A stretch of DNA of 37,177 nt, from contig CANMJR010000029.1 in assembly GCA_947498025.1 (NCBI GenBank), positions 1-37,177 on the forward strand, read 5' to 3'. Within the stretch, counting starts at the first letter, position 1. Each line of letters begins with the position of its first letter. Below, in pieces: positions 3,388-14,243 of this stretch. The DNA is from Helicobacteraceae bacterium. Its GTDB lineage: Bacteria; Campylobacterota; Campylobacteria; Campylobacterales; Sulfurimonadaceae. The translations under genes were made by a program, and so were the position numbers. The notes beneath the pieces were generated by a model. That model searched no databases. It was not told the DNA's origin and worked only from the letters and a program-made list of their open reading frames with translations.

Positions 3388-4890
3388 TTAATTTTGTCTT
3401 TTATTAAAACCTGCAGTTCCCTCTTTTGCATCTGAAGAAAAGTCTTTGGCATGTGCCCTTAAGTAACTCGGGATTGCTCTGCCTTTGACCTTCATCATGT
3501 CTTCAAGCATCTCTTTTGCGACAATATCCGGTGAGAGTTTTTTGATTTGTGTTAGGTATATAAAGAGTAGTTCGCCGAGCCTTTGAAGAGAGATTTGCCA
3601 AGTGGAATCGGTCTGTTGATATATCCACATGCCAAACGCATAAAAGTTTTCGTAAACGCTCTCATCTTGCCAGATAAGTTTAACACTCTTTTTGAAATTT
3701 CCGCTGTTATAAGTTAAATCCCAAAATCTCGCAAACCTTTTCATAATCTGTATATCATTAAAACTGAGCTGAGAGTTTTGCAAAATATCATAAGGTGGAA
3801 TATCACTATAAACCATGCTATGTTCAATATCATGGCGGTTTATAAATGTTCCAGAGAGTTTTTTAAGTATCCCTATCTGTATCTCGCAACTGCTGAGTTT
3901 TACTAATTCATCAAGATTCCTGCCAAAACTCTCTAGCGATTCATTGGGAAGCCCGACTATCAAATCAAGATGTATGTGCGCCTCGGTTTCATTTTCTAAA
4001 AAGCTTATATTTTCTTTAATCTTTTCTAGGTTCATCTCTCTTGATATATTTTTTGCAATCTCTAAGTTAAGCGTTTGTATCCCTATTTCAAGCTGCAAGG
4101 CACCATGAGGGAACTTTGCGATTTTCTCTTTTATGGAAGCTGGAAAATGGTCTGGGATTACTTCAAAGTGAGCAAAATAGGGAGGCTCTTTTGCCAAAAA
4201 AAAGTCTAATATTCTGTTGGCTGTCTTCATGTTGAGGTTAAAAGTTCTATCCACAAATTTGAAGTTTCTAGCGCCTCTTTGCCATAAAAGCTCAAACTCT
4301 GCTAAAACAGCATCCAAATCAAATGCTCTGACCCGCTCATCCATAGAAGAGAGACAGAACTCACAGTGAAATGGGCAACCTCTTGACATTTCTACATAGA
4401 TGTAGCGGTTTTTTATATCATCGTCTGTGTAGTATCTGTATGGAAGTTCTACTGTTTTAAGCTCTGGAGTGTTCATTTTAATGATTTTTGCTATTGGCGG
4501 ATTTTTATCAAAAATATTTTTACAAAGCTCATAAAAAGCCAAGTCACCTTCACCTTGAATAATAAAATCAGCCTCATCAAAATTGACACGAAATGGTGTG
4601 TGGGTCACTTCAGGACCGCCTAAAACTATGAGGGTTTGTGGTGAGATTTTTTTTAAAATGTGAACAAGTTCTTGCACCTCTTTAGCATTCCAGATATAAA
4701 CGCCAATACCAATAACATCCGGCATACAAAAGAGCAGTTTCTCCACTACTGTCTGAAGAGCATCGTTTATGCTAAATTCTAAAATTTCAGCCTCTTCTTG
4801 CAACTCTTTTAGATTAGCATACAAATATCTAAGACCTATAGAGCTGTGAGTGTATCTTGAATTTAAGGTAGTTAGGATGATTTTTTTCAT
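3388..4890 (-). CDS. B12-binding-domain radical SAM protein
   Basis: A 500-residue cytoplasmic enzyme. Residues 1-130 form a cobalamin-binding-like domain (VLGGPEVTHTP at 89-99 is typical), and residues about 160-370 the radical SAM core with the cluster motif CxxxCxxC (Cys172, Cys176, Cys179 in RGCPFHCEFC). The C-terminal third resembles the domain of unknown function seen in radical SAM proteins of this layout. Such enzymes use SAM and often cobalamin to alkylate or rearrange a substrate; which one cannot be told. It is the first gene of an apparent three-gene transcript with lapG and lapD, whose meaning is unclear. No good Shine-Dalgarno sequence precedes the ATG at 4890, but the conserved N-terminus (KKIILTTLNSRYTH) begins there. 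Confidence 0.85.
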   Translation of the reverse strand: MKKIILTTLNSRYTHSSIGLRYLYANLKELQEEAEILEFSINDALQTVVEKLLFCMPDVIGIGVYIWNAKEVQELVHILKKISPQTLIVLGGPEVTHTPFRVNFDEADFIIQGEGDLAFYELCKNIFDKNPPIAKIIKMNTPELKTVELPYRYYTDDDIKNRYIYVEMSRGCPFHCEFCLSSMDERVRAFDLDAVLAEFELLWQRGARNFKFVDRTFNLNMKTANRILDFFLAKEPPYFAHFEVIPDHFPASIKEKIAKFPHGALQLEIGIQTLNLEIAKNISREMNLEKIKENISFLENETEAHIHLDLIVGLPNESLESFGRNLDELVKLSSCEIQIGILKKLSGTFINRHDIEHSMVYSDIPPYDILQNSQLSFNDIQIMKRFARFWDLTYNSGNFKKSVKLIWQDESVYENFYAFGMWIYQQTDSTWQISLQRLGELLFIYLTQIKKLSPDIVAKEMLEDMMKVKGRAIPSYLRAHAKDFSSDAKEGTAGFNKRQN

Positions 4891-4911
4891 AATGTGATTT
4901 TAGCATAAAAG

Positions 4912-4946
4912 TCTCAAGCTCTGTAAAGGGGGTTAAGAGCTTGAGA
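4912..4946 (-). terminator. Perfect 11-bp stem-loop between aerotaxis and radical SAM genes
   Basis: TCTCAAGCTCT (4912-4922) pairs exactly with AGAGCTTGAGA (4936-4946) across a 13-base loop. On the minus strand it is followed by CTTTTATG, a weak T run. It may end the aerotaxis transcript or act as a leader element of the radical SAM gene 22 bases further on. A second AT-rich inverted repeat (5034-5043 with 5065-5074) lies between this and the aerotaxis stop codon. Confidence 0.45.
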
Positions 4947-5106
4947 AGGGTTATAGAAAATTTATAGGAGTTTATCTTTATCTCTATATGAAAGGGGGAA
5001 AACATATTTGAGATGCGTAATTATATTTATTATAAATAAATAGCAAGTTAACCATATTTTATTCCTATTTATTTAAGCTATTCTTAATAGTTCTCTCTTT
5101 GAGAAA

Positions 5107-6543
5107 CTATTTTGATTGCCCATACTCCTCTATCATAGCATCAAGTTTAGTAAAGAGTTCAACAGATGCCTCTTCCATTGCAGAAAAATTTGCTACTATA
5201 TGTTTCGGATTATCAAATTTTAGCGTTGTGCCATGTTTTACAAACTCTATATTTTTAAATACTGAGTTATGGACTACGGCATGAGGAGCATCCATCTGTG
5301 CAAAGGCTTTTGTATTGCCAAATCTATCATGCCCGATACCAAGATACCATTTACCCATACGGCAATTTTTGTGATCAGCAAAAACAGCAGATGCATCAGC
5401 TTCCAAAACAGTAGAATACGCTTTAGATTTAAAAATAATGTGATCAACTTTCACAAGCGTTGTAAAGAGACGATTCTGAACTTTTATAGCTGAATGAGAT
5501 GCACTGTTTGCAAGAGAGTTGAGTTCTTTAAATGTATCTTCAAACGCATGTATAACTATATTTGAAGTATCTGCAATCTCTGAAATATTGTCAGAATTTG
5601 TTCTTATCTCATTTGTCTCTTGTTGCAATGCTTTGATAGTGATTTCTATTTGGGTTGTTGCCTTTTGTGTTCTCTCGGCAAGTTTACGAACCTCATCTGC
5701 TACAACTGCAAATCCTCGCCCATGCTCACCGGCACGTGCGGCTTCAATTGCAGCGTTAAGAGCTAAAAGGTTTGTTTGATCTGCTATATCTTTAATGAGT
5801 CCGACAACCTCTGAAATCTCTGCTGAGCGTTGTTCCAAGTTTATTATACCGCCATGAGAAGAGGCTATAAGCTCTACGAGTTCACCTAATCTTTGACTTA
5901 TTTCAGCAACTGTATCCAAACTTTTTGACGACTCTTCTGCGGTTTTGTTAGCAACACCGACAATTTCAAAAGAATCTTCGGAACAAAAACTTATATCTTT
6001 TTGAATAACTAAAAGACCTTGACTCACTCCACCACCTAAATTGGCTAATTCATGTGAAAGTTCTCCTCTTATTTTTGTATCATTACCCCTTGCTATAGAT
6101 GAGATTGCCTTATTGAGTGTTTTTGCAGTTGTATAAAAAACCCCATGAAGACCTTCCGAATAAGTTCTTCTATATGTTTGACCTGCAGAAGCCTTTTCTA
6201 TAGTAGTTACAGTATCTCTCATAAAAGCTTCTAGTTGGTCAAGAACATCATTAAGGCTCCATGCAAAATCTGATTCAGCAGAGTCGTCATCCGGTATATG
6301 CGTAACACGATCTTCTAGCTTACCATTTGCTGCATTTTTTAAAACCCTTTGCATTGCAAGACGTAATTCTGAAGATGATTCAGAGTTAGAACCCGCTGGG
6401 ACAAAGATAGACAGTAGTAAAATAAAAAGTACAACTAAAGCTAAAATATAGCCTCCGGTAGCCAAAGCAAATATCGCTACACCTGCAAGTGCAACTAAAA
6501 GTAAAATAGTTTGATTACTCTTGAATAGAGATGATAAGTTCAT
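5107..6543 (-). CDS. Aerotaxis/energy-taxis transducer (MCP) with C-terminal CZB zinc domain, CetA-like
   Basis: A 478-residue transducer. Two closely spaced hydrophobic helices (about 12-30 and 32-49) form a membrane hairpin with almost no periplasmic part, so it does not sense an outside ligand by itself. HAMP-like repeats follow (about 53-160), then the MCP signalling domain with tip [19 protein letters not shown] (255-273), then a CZB domain with the expected zinc ligands His368, Cys394 (CRMGKW), His421 and His425. The upstream gene encodes an Aer-type PAS protein and overlaps it by 29 bases, the split arrangement of Campylobacter CetA/CetB energy taxis. It probably relays the redox state read by the PAS partner to CheA. 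The CZB domain is an extra zinc or oxidant input. Confidence 0.85.
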
Positions 6544-10102: not shown

Positions 10103-11341
10103 CTATTTTCTACCTTTTGGAGATGGGCGAGTTCTGTTACTAGGACGAGACCTATTATTTGAACCTGAACCTCTTTTTTGCACAATCGGCTCAGCTTTTA
10201 TAGACGGGTCAGGTGCAAAACCTTTTACTACAAATCTGTGAATATCTTTTTTAATCAGTTTCTCTATATTTTCAAGAAACTCTTTTTCGTCTATACAAAC
10301 AAGCGAAAGTGCTTCTCCTATATTTCCTGCACGACCTGTTCGCCCTATGCGGTGAACATAATCTTCCGGAACATTTGGAAGCTCAAAATTGACTACATGC
10401 GGGAGTTGGTCGATATCTATGCCGCGTGCCGCAATATCTGTTGCAACAAGAACTCGTACAGTTGAATCTTTAAAATCAGCCAGAGCTTTAGTTCGTGCAT
10501 TTTGACTCTTATTTCCATGGATTGCCGTAGCTGTTATGCCCTCTTTTTCAAGATATTCACTTAGCTTATTCGCACCATGTTTTGTTCTTGTAAAAACAAG
10601 CACCTGCTTCCAGTCACCCTCTTTTATGAGGTGTGAAAGCAACTCTTTTTTTCTCTCTTTATCTACCGGATGTATAACCTGTTTTACCTGCTCGGATGAC
10701 ATGTTTGCACGAGCCACTTCTATAAGCGTCGGTGCATTTAACAGATTATCTGCAAGTCTTTTTATCTCATCAGAAAAAGTAGCAGAGAAGAGAAGATTTT
10801 GTCTATTTTTTGGCAAAATTGCTAAGATTTTTCTAATATCGTTTATAAAGCCCATATCGAGCATTCTATCCGCTTCATCCAAAATCAAAAAATCAACTTT
10901 TGATAGGTCAATAGTTTTTTGAGAAATATGGTCTAAAAGCCGCCCCGGAGTTGCGATAACAATATCAACACCTTTTCTAAGTGCTACAAGCTGAGGGTTT
11001 ATCTTGACCCCGCCAAATATGACAGTCGATTTAAAAGGAAGATGTTTTCCATAAATATCTACACTCTCGGCAACTTGAGATGCAAGTTCTCTTGTTGGAG
11101 TTAAAATAAGCGCACGAATCTCCGGTTTGTTGTGTGCTCGCTTATGCTGACTTAAAAGTTGAAGCATCGGGAGTGTAAAACCTGCTGTTTTTCCTGTTCC
11201 GGTTTGTGCACCTGCAAGAATATCTTTTTTGGCTAAAATAACAGGAATTGCCTGCTTTTGAACGGGAGTAGGTTCTGTGTAACCCTGCTCTTGTATGGCT
11301 TTTAGAAGTGGCTCAATGAGCCCGAGTTGTTTAAATGACAT
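10103..11341 (-). CDS. rhlE: DEAD-box RNA helicase, RhlE type
   Basis: A 412-residue ATP-dependent RNA helicase. The motifs appear in order: Q motif ([10 protein letters not shown]), Walker [39 protein letters not shown], and in the second RecA domain [11 protein letters not shown] and [10 protein letters not shown]. The tail from about 385 is basic and rich in Arg, Ser, Asn and Pro, a typical RNA-binding extension. Enzymes of this group remodel structured RNA and help ribosome assembly or mRNA decay, often in the cold. Its promoter is a TGCTATAAT box at 11384-11392, back to back with a promoter for the helicase-derived protein at 11490. The diguanylate cyclase follows at once. Confidence 0.92.
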
Positions 11342-11383
11342 TAACTACCTTTTACATTAGCTTAAATAGGCTAAATTTGGGGC

Positions 11384-11392
11384 ATTATAGCA
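11384..11392 (-). promoter_or_regulatory. Extended -10 promoter of the rhlE gene
   Basis: On the minus strand the site reads TGCTATAAT, an extended -10, about 43-50 bases ahead of the start codon, with TTCATT 16 bases further up as a possible -35. Confidence 0.6.
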
Positions 11393-11432
11393 GATTCTGC
11401 GTAAGAATGAAACTCTCACGACACATTTACGC

Positions 11433-11438
11433 TATAAT
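11433..11438 (+). promoter_or_regulatory. -10 box of the helicase-derived repeat protein gene
   Basis: TATAAT in the context ACGCTATAATCATG, about 50 bases ahead of the ATG at 11490, with no clear -35, as is common in Campylobacterota. A 6-bp hairpin (ATGCAA 11440-11445, TTGCAT 11451-11456) would lie at the 5' end of the transcript. Confidence 0.5.
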
Positions 11439-11489
11439 CATGCAACAATTTTGCATCGTTCTACGGCTGCAAACCACTCAAGGATTTCT

Positions 11490-12506
11490 ATGCCATCTTC
11501 TACCCCAACTCTAAAACGCCACAATCACCGTGTTCATCCATGTCAATCAGAGAAAAAACATGAGCTTTTAAACCTGCTTCTCACGAAGAATGAGGGAAAA
11601 AATATTATTGTTGTCACCTGTGAAACAATTGAAGAGGGTGAAAATTCAAAAAATATCACTTTTATAAATGATGATGATTTGCTAAGCGCACCGGAACTTA
11701 AAGCTGAACTTCTCATTAGTTACAACTTACCCGACAAAGCCATTGCTTACATGGCTAGAATTGCCCACGCAACTTCGCATGCACTCATTTTACTCGACCA
11801 AGAAGAGGAGAAATTCCTCTATCCGATAGAGACGCTCATCGGGCGAACTATTATGCAAGAGCCGATTGAAGGCTTCGGACCGGCTATTGTTGTAAAGCCG
11901 GAAGTTGTAAAAAAAGAGTACGCACCAAGAGAAGAGAGAAAAGATTTTAAACCAAGAAACAGCGACTTCAAAGGTGAAAAGAAAAAATTCGGTGATAGAC
12001 CATCAAGAGATGACAAACCTCGTTCCGCAAAGCCTTATGACAGAGATAAAAAGGATGAAAAGTCTGGCTTTAAAAAGCCATTTGATAAAGATAAATCCGG
12101 TTTCAAAAAGCCTTATGATAAGGACAAAAAAGATGATAAGTTTGGCGCGAAGAAGCCTTGGGACAAAGATAAAAAAGATGACGGCAAGCCTAGCTTCAAA
12201 AAACCATGGGATAAAGATGACAAATCCGCTGCTAAAAAACCGTGGGATAAAGATAAAAGAGATGATAAGTCCGGTTTTAAGAAACCTTTTGACAAAGACG
12301 GCAAATCCGGATTTAAAAAGCCTTATGACAAAGATAAAAAAAGTTCAACATTTTTAGGGAAAGATGAAAATGGTAAAGCTATCTTTTCTGGCAAATCAGG
12401 TGATAGAAATCATCGTCATGACGGCTCTAAAAGAGAATCCGCTCCAGTGCTTACCGGCAAAAAAATAAATATAAAATCTCTTAAAAAACCGGCAGGCAAA
12501 GAGTAA
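11490..12506 (+). CDS. Helicase-derived protein with RecA2-like domain and aromatic/charged repeat tail
   Basis: A 338-residue protein of unknown function. Residues about 14-130 follow the second RecA domain of the neighbouring RhlE: HRVHPCQSEKKHELLNLLL resembles [18 protein letters not shown], and EEEKFLYPIETLIGRTI-EPIEGF resembles [21 protein letters not shown]. The arginine motif HRIGRTGR is replaced by MARIAHATSH and there is no first RecA domain, so it cannot be an ATPase. From residue 140 it is a disordered polyampholyte with seven copies of (F/A)KKP(F/Y/W)DKD plus a weaker first copy (residues 179-281), and a basic tail. The start at 11490 was preferred over a TTG at 11451 because AAGGA lies five bases ahead. 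It is transcribed divergently from rhlE, and an RNA-related role is an inference. Confidence 0.75.
   Translation: MPSSTPTLKRHNHRVHPCQSEKKHELLNLLLTKNEGKNIIVVTCETIEEGENSKNITFINDDDLLSAPELKAELLISYNLPDKAIAYMARIAHATSHALILLDQEEEKFLYPIETLIGRTIMQEPIEGFGPAIVVKPEVVKKEYAPREERKDFKPRNSDFKGEKKKFGDRPSRDDKPRSAKPYDRDKKDEKSGFKKPFDKDKSGFKKPYDKDKKDDKFGAKKPWDKDKKDDGKPSFKKPWDKDDKSAAKKPWDKDKRDDKSGFKKPFDKDGKSGFKKPYDKDKKSSTFLGKDENGKAIFSGKSGDRNHRHDGSKRESAPVLTGKKINIKSLKKPAGKE
12024..12332 (+). repeat. In-frame degenerate repeats coding (F/A)KKP(F/Y/W)DKD
   Basis: Seven full copies and one weaker first copy (AKPYDRD) spaced 11-17 residues apart, with linkers of Lys, Asp, Ser and Gly. The aromatic place is always Phe, Tyr or Trp, while codons differ between copies, so the pattern is kept at the protein level. 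Confidence 0.85.
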
Positions 12507-12514
12507 AAATTCTT

Positions 12515-12745
12515 TTATTCTTTATTAAACTCTAAACTTTCTTTTGACTGAATTTTTTCAGATGGTTTGATAGACGCTTTTGCAGCCTCTTCTTCGCTAT
12601 ATTTCATACACTCCTGAGGCATAGTCGCCTGAGGGTCTAATCTTATATTCTGACACATCTGGGCATTAAATGTCATATTTGCACATCCGCCAAAAACAAC
12701 TACTGATGCCAAACACAACTTCCAAAATAATATTTCTTTTGACAT
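12515..12745 (-). CDS. Small predicted lipoprotein
   Basis: A 76-residue protein with a lipoprotein signal peptide: Lys-containing start, hydrophobic stretch, then VVFGGC with the lipid-bearing Cys at 21. The mature part is polar with two further Cys. AAGGAG stands five bases ahead of the ATG. It follows thyX by 14 bases and is probably the last gene of that transcript; it meets the repeat-protein gene tail to tail. The family is not recognised. Confidence 0.7.
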   Translation of the reverse strand: MSKEILFWKLCLASVVVFGGCANMTFNAQMCQNIRLDPQATMPQECMKYSEEEAAKASIKPSEKIQSKESLEFNKE

Positions 12746-12759
12746 GTGGACTCCTTTCT

Positions 12760-13593
12760 TTATAATTTCTTTTTAATAATTAAATCTAAATATTTCGACG
12801 GTGTTGACCGCATCATCTCTTGAGCGAGCCAACGAATTTGAAAATATGCTGCACCGCTATCTCTGAGTGTAAAATAGTTTTTTAAACTTCTGAGATTAAA
12901 AGTCACAACCATGTCAACTTTTACATTATCTGTAATGATATGTTTAAAAGCGTCACCCACATTCTTTTTCTTTTTACCGGCTTCGAGGGCTTCAAAGAGT
13001 GCTTGTGGATTTGTGTTCAACGCTTCTAAGAGTGGCAAAGAACTCTTCGCCACCGCCATATCATAAAAATCTTCCACTTTTTTTGATTGATATTCAAGTT
13101 TATCATACATTGCACCGATTTCAACTCTGTTGTACTCTTTATCTGTTGTTACAAACATGTCAAAATTCAAAATTTTATCTATGAAAAACTCTCTATCTCC
13201 TCCATGTTTTGATGCGACAAAAGCATTGATGACAGAACTCATAGTATAACGGGTACTTCGTACGGATATAGCCTGAATGCGGTGTCTTGCATGCTCTTGA
13301 AGTACGCCTCTTGAAGTGCCTCGAATTAAAAAACTGAGGTTTGCATGTTCTAAAATAGAGTGATGGAAGTAGGTCCATGCCAAGTCACTTAAAAGAGTTG
13401 AATCTTCAATAGAGTTTATCGCACTGCATTCCTCCGCCTCCGGCATGTTGGTTTCAATATGTTTGATTACCTCATTTTCGCTATTTTCAAACGAGTCATA
13501 ACATGTTCGTGCAGCAGCCTCAGCTACCCCAATACCCGTATCTTGAAGTAAAACTACTTTTGGTTGTGAATATTTTATACCGTACATTTCCAT
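12760..13593 (-). CDS. thyX: FAD-dependent thymidylate synthase ThyX
   Basis: Makes dTMP from dUMP with methylenetetrahydrofolate and FAD. The ThyX signature RHRx7S is present (RHRIQAISVRS, residues 103-113), preceded by the conserved HHSILEHANLSFLIRG region and followed by LRSLKNYFTLR near the C-terminus. About 277 residues, somewhat longer than many ThyX proteins. The frame is open further up, but the site GGAGGT at 13598-13603 points to the ATG at 13593 (4-base spacing) or the one at 13587 (10-base spacing). An ATG at 13605 overlaps the pcm stop codon and is less likely. It is in an operon with pcm and a nitrilase-family gene, downstream of nrdB. Confidence 0.92.
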   Translation of the reverse strand: MEMYGIKYSQPKVVLLQDTGIGVAEAAARTCYDSFENSENEVIKHIETNMPEAEECSAINSIEDSTLLSDLAWTYFHHSILEHANLSFLIRGTSRGVLQEHARHRIQAISVRSTRYTMSSVINAFVASKHGGDREFFIDKILNFDMFVTTDKEYNRVEIGAMYDKLEYQSKKVEDFYDMAVAKSSLPLLEALNTNPQALFEALEAGKKKKNVGDAFKHIITDNVKVDMVVTFNLRSLKNYFTLRDSGAAYFQIRWLAQEMMRSTPSKYLDLIIKKKL

Positions 13594-13604
13594 AGATACC
13601 TCCA

Positions 13605-14243
13605 TTATTTTTGTATGCCATCCAAAATAGGAACAAAATCGCACGCTTCTAATTCGGTTTGTTCAATGTTTACACCGTTTTTTTTAAAGCGGGTTATTAT
13701 CTGCTTGCCGGCTTTTTCTATAGGTGCTATTAAAATCCCGCCATCCGTTAGTTGCTCAAAGATTTTTTGCGGTATCACTTTTGCCGAGGCTGAGAATAGT
13801 ATTCTATCATAGGGAGAGTATTGCTTCCAGCCATTTTGTCCATCATCTATTTTTGTATGGATATTGTTTATGTTGAGCTCTTTAAAGCGAGCTTTTGCTT
13901 CGAACATCAAAGACTCGATTCTCTCTATGGTAAAAACTCCGCGAAACATGTGCGAGAGCACTGCTGCTTGATAGCCGCTTCCACACCCAATCTCCAGAAC
14001 TTTATAACCACCTTTAGGCTCTAAATATTGGCTCATTTTAGCAACAGTCAAAGGAGAGCTTATCCACTGCGCATACCCCATCGGCAGGGCATCCAGTTTA
14101 TAGGCATTATGTTTAAGCCCCATCGGGACAAAAGCCTCTCTGTTTGTATTTGCTATAGCATTTTTAACTTCAGGGCTGAGAGCAAATCTTTGGTGGCAGT
14201 CCTCTGCTAACCTAGTTGTTTTTGTAGCCGTTATCCTATCCAT
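13605..14243 (-). CDS. pcm: Protein-L-isoaspartate O-methyltransferase
   Basis: A 212-residue SAM-dependent methyltransferase that starts the repair of isoaspartyl residues in aged proteins. It has the family lead-in PMGYAQWISSPLTVAKM (about 54-70) and the SAM-binding loop VLEIGCGSGYQAAVL (about 82-96). The length matches the bacterial family. Its start overlaps the end of the nitrilase-family gene by eight bases, and its stop lies 11 bases before the chosen thyX start, so all three are probably co-translated. Confidence 0.92.
   Translation of the reverse strand: MDRITATKTTRLAEDCHQRFALSPEVKNAIANTNREAFVPMGLKHNAYKLDALPMGYAQWISSPLTVAKMSQYLEPKGGYKVLEIGCGSGYQAAVLSHMFRGVFTIERIESLMFEAKARFKELNINNIHTKIDDGQNGWKQYSPYDRILFSASAKVIPQKIFEQLTDGGILIAPIEKAGKQIITRFKKNGVNIEQTELEACDFVPILDGIQK

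Follow-up and report, generated by a model that had tools for sequence, protein, structure and literature searches.

The locus analyzed here raises the question of what a protein that consists of half a helicase and a long tail might do next to the gene of an intact DEAD-box helicase. The window, that is, the whole stretch of DNA that was analyzed, comprises 37,177 nt, and the part of interest is organized as follows.

11490..12506, + strand: RecA2-remnant gene, 338 aa (open frame, Shine-Dalgarno motif AAGGA at 11480-11484, homologs)
10103..11341, − strand: rhlE, DEAD-box RNA helicase of 412 aa, the divergent partner (NCBIfam RhlE, E 1.3e-200; Pfam DEAD and Helicase_C)
11342..11489, no strand: shared intergenic region with two outward-facing −10 boxes (boxes conserved in relatives)
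11433-11438, + strand: TATAAT −10 box on the RecA2-remnant side
11384-11389, − strand: TATAAT −10 box on the rhlE side

The RecA2-remnant gene starts at the ATG at 11490, with the AAGGA motif 5' of it; a TTG at 11451, given in the ORF list, was rejected as an alternative start because the homologs begin at the ATG instead. The gene and rhlE are arranged in a head-to-head orientation, just as the earlier note had described it, and both the DEAD and the Helicase_C domains encoded by rhlE are complete. In the examined species, RhlE ends in a short basic tail of 19-42 residues, which is often RG/GN-rich and has a species-dependent length. On the other side, a lipoprotein-like ORF of 76 aa without a clear family (12515-12745, − strand) is located between the RecA2-remnant gene and a thyX-like gene (12760-13644). 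The window contained no Rfam match and no tRNA. A phage origin of the gene and a role of its product in defence were also considered and rejected, with no match among phage records and no PADLOC match, respectively. The nearest named homologs of the 338 aa protein (92-95% identity) are encoded in metagenome-assembled genomes labelled Sulfurimonas or Campylobacterales, which most likely assigns the window to Sulfurimonas, family Sulfurimonadaceae. The protein itself can be divided as follows.

11490..11900, + strand: residues 1-137, N-terminal trimmed RecA2 fold (hhalign, AlphaFold, Foldseek, VIA-align)
11901..12350, + strand: residues 138-287, disordered basic linker (low pLDDT, net charge +20)
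12069..12335, + strand: seven (F/A)KKP(F/Y/W)DKD units (exact matches, codon table)
12348..12425, + strand: residues 287-312, C-terminal motif FLGKDENGKAIFSGKSGDRNHRHDG, a predicted beta-hairpin (near-invariance, model)
12450..12503, + strand: basic C-terminal peptide LTGKKINIKSLKKPAGKE (GKKISIKARKPK-like end conserved across homologs)

Residues 6-129 of the 338 correspond to a trimmed RecA2 domain of an RhlE-type DEAD-box helicase. When the family profile, a 69-row homolog alignment, was compared by hhalign with an alignment of RhlE RecA2 domains, the match was collinear over residues 13-137 with a probability of 96.7 (E 3.9e-10), whereas the probability for the same profile against RhlE RecA1 was 0.9. 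The comparison thus bears out two previous claims, namely, that the N-terminal half follows the RecA2 domain of RhlE and that the whole RecA1 has been lost. Indeed, the frame starts at RecA2, and neither the RecA1 motifs (Walker A, DEAD, SAT) nor a Pfam DEAD match was found. AlphaFold2, run on the 69-row alignment, predicted five strands with alternating helices for the domain (pLDDT 85.9). The top matches of this model in a Foldseek search against the PDB were RecA2 domains of DEAD-box proteins, and VIA-align superimposed 117 residues on the RecA2 domain of YxiN with a Z score of 15.8 and an rmsd of 1.6 Å, so that residues 14-130 are predicted to adopt the RecA2 fold, as had been anticipated.

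The segment that joins motif IV to motif V in RhlE has lost about 28 residues, comprising a helix-strand-helix with motif IVa and the HGNKSQ..R stretch. Motif V was not recognizable in a residue-by-residue comparison with RhlE, and motif VI reads YMARIAHATS, with five residues missing, versus HRIGRTGR in RhlE. The previous statement that the arginine motif is gone applies to the two finger arginines, both of which are lost, but not to the first arginine of motif VI (R90), which is invariant across the family. Other RhlE-like features are also kept, that is, the order of the elements, the NYDLP-Y-R segment, and a GF(x)P segment that follows the core. RNA and ATP are bound, in known structures of DEAD-box proteins, by the parts that have been deleted or altered here. 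Therefore, as far as the sequence goes, catalysis as well as classical RNA clamping appear to be excluded. Taken together, the fold of the model, the descent from an RhlE-type RecA2 domain, and the loss of the motifs mark the protein as a predicted catalytically dead derivative.

Neither Pfam nor NCBIfam provides a dedicated model for the RecA2-remnant family. The protein of the window had no Pfam match at E 1, Pfam Helicase_C was touched by 3 of 69 family members with E values of 0.014 or worse, and the NCBIfam RhlE model yielded 25.8 bits versus a cut-off of 743. Thus, no Pfam or NCBIfam match exceeded a curated cut-off, in line with the former remark that no named family with such a layout was known. 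In a tree of RecA2 domains, the family formed one clade (support 100/99), the sister of which was another group of stand-alone RecA2 proteins (94/93), with both placed close to RhlE-type helicases. A tree in which the family was constrained to RhlE was worse (p-AU 0.033). The idea that the gene arose recently in situ, by duplication of the neighboring rhlE, was considered but is not supported, since the family groups with the stand-alone RecA2 proteins, a placement that is uncertain given the long branches. The second family of degenerate stand-alone RecA2 proteins (about 215 aa) occurs sporadically, in 8 of 299 genomes of Campylobacterales, and was located at the following positions.

Contig C3:52012-52653, − strand: second-family RecA2 protein in the source genome
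L092:4010-4654, as well as L043, L044, L045, and L046: second-family RecA2 proteins in other loci
L042:1693-2346 and 4610-5248: a second-family pair, 2.3 kb apart

Like the RecA2-remnant proteins, these proteins consist of RecA2 only, have lost motif VI, which is replaced by YFxRLxxVDEVGES, and carry a basic tail, ending in KDKKKKPRHRKKK. Unlike the RecA2-remnant family, they keep the HGN stretch (HGNHR) and a motif-V-like TTDMILKSLEL, and they lack the C-terminal motif.

This C-terminal hairpin motif, LGKDENGKAIFSGKSGERNH, had been overlooked in the earlier note (residues 287-312 in the window protein). It is usually conserved in the family, being absent from some short homologs, and among the homologs that have it (F/Y)LGKDENGKAIFSGKSGERNHRYDG is nearly invariant. 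Across 200 genomes of the order, the motif was restricted to the RecA2-remnant family, one marginal match aside. The RecA2 remnant and, usually, the hairpin motif are the parts that are conserved family-wide. That the motif contacts RNA or the ribosome would be a guess.

The tail is a different matter. In the full-length model, the pLDDT values of the linker are mostly between 42 and 55 by block, and 20 aromatic residues are found between residues 144 and 299, with spacings of 4-16. The seven units that had been reported are exact in the window protein, starting at residues 194, 205, 220, 236, 248, 263, and 275. At the codon level, six of the eight positions vary synonymously only, one alternates between F and A, and one between F, Y, and W, so that an aromatic residue is indeed kept in every unit. 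The proposed even balance of Lys and Asp was not found: the linker (residues 138-287) contains K47 and R8 versus D29 and E6, a net charge of +20, and the pI of the tail is 9.9. Across the homologs, the number of such units varies from 0 to 8, the length of the linker from 20 to 150 residues, and the aromatic fraction from 0 to 12%. In the pattern K(x)P-X-(D/E/G)(K/R/D), the X was aromatic in 218 of 291 places, which are non-independent owing to repeat copying, versus about 8% aromatic residues in whole tails. In Sulfurimonas the repeats precede the C-terminal motif, whereas in Sulfuricurvum KKPYGDK-type repeats follow it, suggesting that low-complexity sequence of a similar kind has grown independently in the two genera. 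KKPYGDK or RKPYDGEK repeats 3' of the motif were seen in L093, L094, L101, L142, and L144, all of which are Sulfuricurvum or likely Sulfuricurvum, and in L155. The repeats are thus a lineage-specific elaboration, and the description as a gained aromatic sticker tail fits the lineage of the window, but not the family, many members of which are devoid of repeats.

A comparison of the window sequence with its two nearest relatives yielded dN/dS values of 0.13-0.18 for the domain, about 0.05 for the tail, and 0.01-0.03 for the C-terminal motif, indicative of strong purifying selection on all three regions. The value for the tail suggests that the tail matters and is constrained over short times, despite the rapid turnover of its length and its repeat across the family. 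One copy of the gene was detected with the domain profile in 131 of 147 Sulfurimonadaceae genomes with a completeness of at least 90%; one genome (G477) was scored as lacking it because the profile matched only a 429 aa frame of helicase length. In Sulfurimonas, 78 of 85 genomes keep an open RecA2-remnant gene. Among 399 genomes of the order, strong matches to the domain profile were confined to Sulfurimonadaceae, and the weak matches outside of this family were mostly full-length helicases, along with some second-family proteins comprising RecA2 only. The counts for the 147 and the 85 genomes, obtained by profile search, are free of the bias of the 80 named loci discussed below, which were gathered via patterns of the C-terminal motif and therefore under-represent homologs without it.

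In 58 of the 80 named loci, rhlE is immediately divergent from the RecA2-remnant gene. In three further loci it is located further off, in 17 loci it is missing from an upstream sequence of more than 1.2 kb, and two loci were too short to tell. Thus, homologs are found adjoining the gene of an RNA helicase, so that neither of the two results that, according to the earlier note, would have refuted its reading was obtained, that is, neither another fold of residues 14-130 nor homologs that are never near such a gene. In the linked set, the neighbor across the intergenic region was rhlE in 50 of 55 cases, and the outer neighbors fell into 21 clusters beyond rhlE and 18 clusters on the other side. 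This stability of the pair amid varied surroundings suggests that it was kept through many rearrangements. Outside of Sulfurimonas, the linkage is mixed: by their coordinates, the genes also form a divergent pair in the genera g89, g90, and g94, so that this arrangement is probably ancestral, whereas in certain other genera, Sulfuricurvum among them, they are apart.

The two −10 boxes of the shared region are separated by exactly 23 bp in 36 of 52 loci (linked loci, L119-L190) and by 43 bp in the window. With such a close spacing, the footprints of RNA polymerase at the two boxes would probably overlap. The rhlE side of the region contains a near-invariant block, AAATTATGCTATTATG. This block was considered as an operator specific for the pair and rejected, since nearly the same block is present in L055, where rhlE is situated about 3 kb from its partner; therefore, it reads as the extended −10 element of rhlE itself. 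A palindromic operator in the 23 bp spacer was considered as well; the palindromicity of the spacer is 0.38 versus 0.27 after shuffling, part of which may be explained by overlap with the −10 elements.

The two genes also tend to be present or absent together. Among the 147 Sulfurimonadaceae genomes, 122 contain both genes, 11 contain neither, nine contain only the RecA2-remnant gene, and five only the window-type rhlE, with orthologs of the latter delimited at E 1e-140, a cut-off that was set once the identities had been seen to fall into two separate groups, at about 65-100% and about 50%. Genomes with neither gene are thus more frequent than the expected 2.2 (Fisher p 4.5e-8), and co-occurrence was also observed in the genera other than Sulfurimonas (p 2.4e-4), where most sampled members have the genes apart; both values ignore shared ancestry and genome reduction, and several of the genomes that lack both genes are 1.4-1.7 Mb in size. 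Joint absences outside of Sulfurimonas were observed in g23, g25, g26, g27, and g28, and in the loci examined from g25-g28 the genes are not adjacent. Draft assemblies can lose both neighbors together, and some of the genomes with a single gene are fragmented assemblies. Every checked genome that lacks both genes has a second RhlE-like paralog, about 50% identical. The nine and five genomes with only one of the genes indicate that neither gene strictly needs the other. In one genome, the rhlE ortholog contains two internal TAG codons (G440:C67:2689-3921, locus L220), possibly due to decay or a sequencing error; the RecA2-remnant gene was not found in that genome.

These observations give genetic support, in the form of the conserved divergent pairing and the correlated absence, to the previous proposal that the protein is a partner or regulator of RhlE; the contact of the two proteins, the binding of RNA by the tail, the direction of the effect, and condensates are what we infer. 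The chances that the RecA2-remnant protein serves RhlE as a partner without catalytic activity, and with a tail that binds RNA, seem to us evenly balanced. It would be a pseudohelicase adaptor made up of an RhlE-type RecA2 domain, a disordered tail that is long and basic, and a small, conserved C-terminal hairpin. The RecA2 remnant would offer a surface for protein docking, while the basic aromatic tail, perhaps together with the hairpin, would interact non-specifically with RNA or with RNA-protein particles and might thereby keep RhlE close to its RNA substrates or tune the local concentration of both. A limit of this reading is that the needs of expression can by themselves preserve a shared promoter region, with no contact between the two proteins. 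More tentative, and rather doubtful, is the extension to a family-wide two-protein system, in which the dead RecA2 copy encoded back to back would provide RhlE in trans with an RNA-binding, possibly condensate-forming tail.

Alternatively, the protein might act on its own as an RNA-binding scaffold or condensate former, with RecA2 as a structural knob and with rhlE sharing only its expression, for example under cold or stress. The basic and aromatic tail (218 of 291 repeat positions across homologs), the independent expansion of like-flavored repeats in Sulfurimonas and Sulfuricurvum, and the nine genomes that keep the gene without a window-type rhlE would fit such a function. However, RecA2 is kept in every homolog, some linkers have 20-50 residues and almost no aromatic ones, and the gene tends to be missing along with rhlE, which makes this explanation unlikely. 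We regard as still less probable a role like that of Utp25, in which the dead domain would be bound to a pre-ribosomal particle and would mark the site of action of RhlE. Pseudohelicases of ribosome assembly do exist (PMC9539457), the RhlE of E. coli is listed with the DEAD-box proteins taking part in ribosome biogenesis (PMC3814787), and the basic tail and the C-terminal peptide may be likened to extensions of ribosomal proteins; yet no link to ribosome genes was noticed among the examined loci, and Utp25 retains both RecA domains. Being a RecA2 copy expressed from a closely spaced divergent promoter, the protein might also be a decoy or brake that competes with the RecA2 domain of RhlE for RecA1, RNA, or a regulator, with overlapping promoters balancing the two products. 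Since motifs IVa, V, and VI, with which RecA2 closes onto RecA1 and RNA, are deleted or changed, direct competition is unlikely, and only competition for a regulator that binds the outer face would be possible; we hold such a decoy or brake to be very improbable. The loss of motifs and of one domain could finally be taken as the sign of a decaying pseudogene or a relic of an rhlE duplication, a reading that is refuted by the open gene in 78 of 85 genomes of the genus and 131 of 147 of the family and by dN/dS values far below 1 in all three regions, leaving it a negligible probability. Judged by the genetic evidence, the partner idea thus appears to be the best-supported explanation. In any case, the RecA2-remnant proteins are a real, unnamed family; the core of the earlier note was right, and the tail had been over-read.

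Pseudohelicases are known mainly from eukaryotes. With the terms used, a search of the available literature revealed no paper about inactive DEAD-box helicases of bacteria, nor any about members of the DEAD-box family in Sulfurimonas. A bacterial half-helicase that lacks the ATP and RNA motifs, is kept nearly universally in Sulfurimonadaceae, and is coupled to an intact RhlE through the order of the genes, the layout of the promoters, and correlated absence offers a compact natural system for testing whether a DEAD-box helicase can be steered by a dead RecA domain that carries a disordered tail. It also supplies a testable label for a gene that lacks a curated family name in the genomes of Sulfurimonas and Sulfuricurvum.

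Among known systems, the RhlE-type RecA2 domain is nearest in profile and tree, with the same fold and order of elements; in the RecA2-remnant protein, RecA1, about 28 residues, and the finger arginines are gone, and the repeat tail and the C-terminal motif have been added. Utp25/Def, a eukaryotic ribosome-assembly factor with a helicase fold without working motifs, has been called the first fully validated pseudohelicase (PMC9539457). The RecA2-remnant protein shares with it a helicase fold with non-functional motifs, in one RecA domain versus the two of Utp25; the searches made revealed no bacterial counterpart of Utp25. Small partners of DEAD-box helicases, as proposed here, include the LOTUS domain, a non-catalytic regulator that docks on the RecA2 domain of Vasa (PMC5458760), and RraA, which acts on the RecA2 domain of SrmB and also binds RhlE (PMC3814787). 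However, LOTUS and RraA have unrelated folds, whereas the RecA2-remnant protein is itself derived from RecA2. In E. coli, SrmB and RhlE are found in the same foci as DeaD condensates (PMC12758526), which combine a helicase-family protein with RNA, as might the RecA2-remnant protein; in the latter case, the tail is part of a separate, catalytically dead protein.
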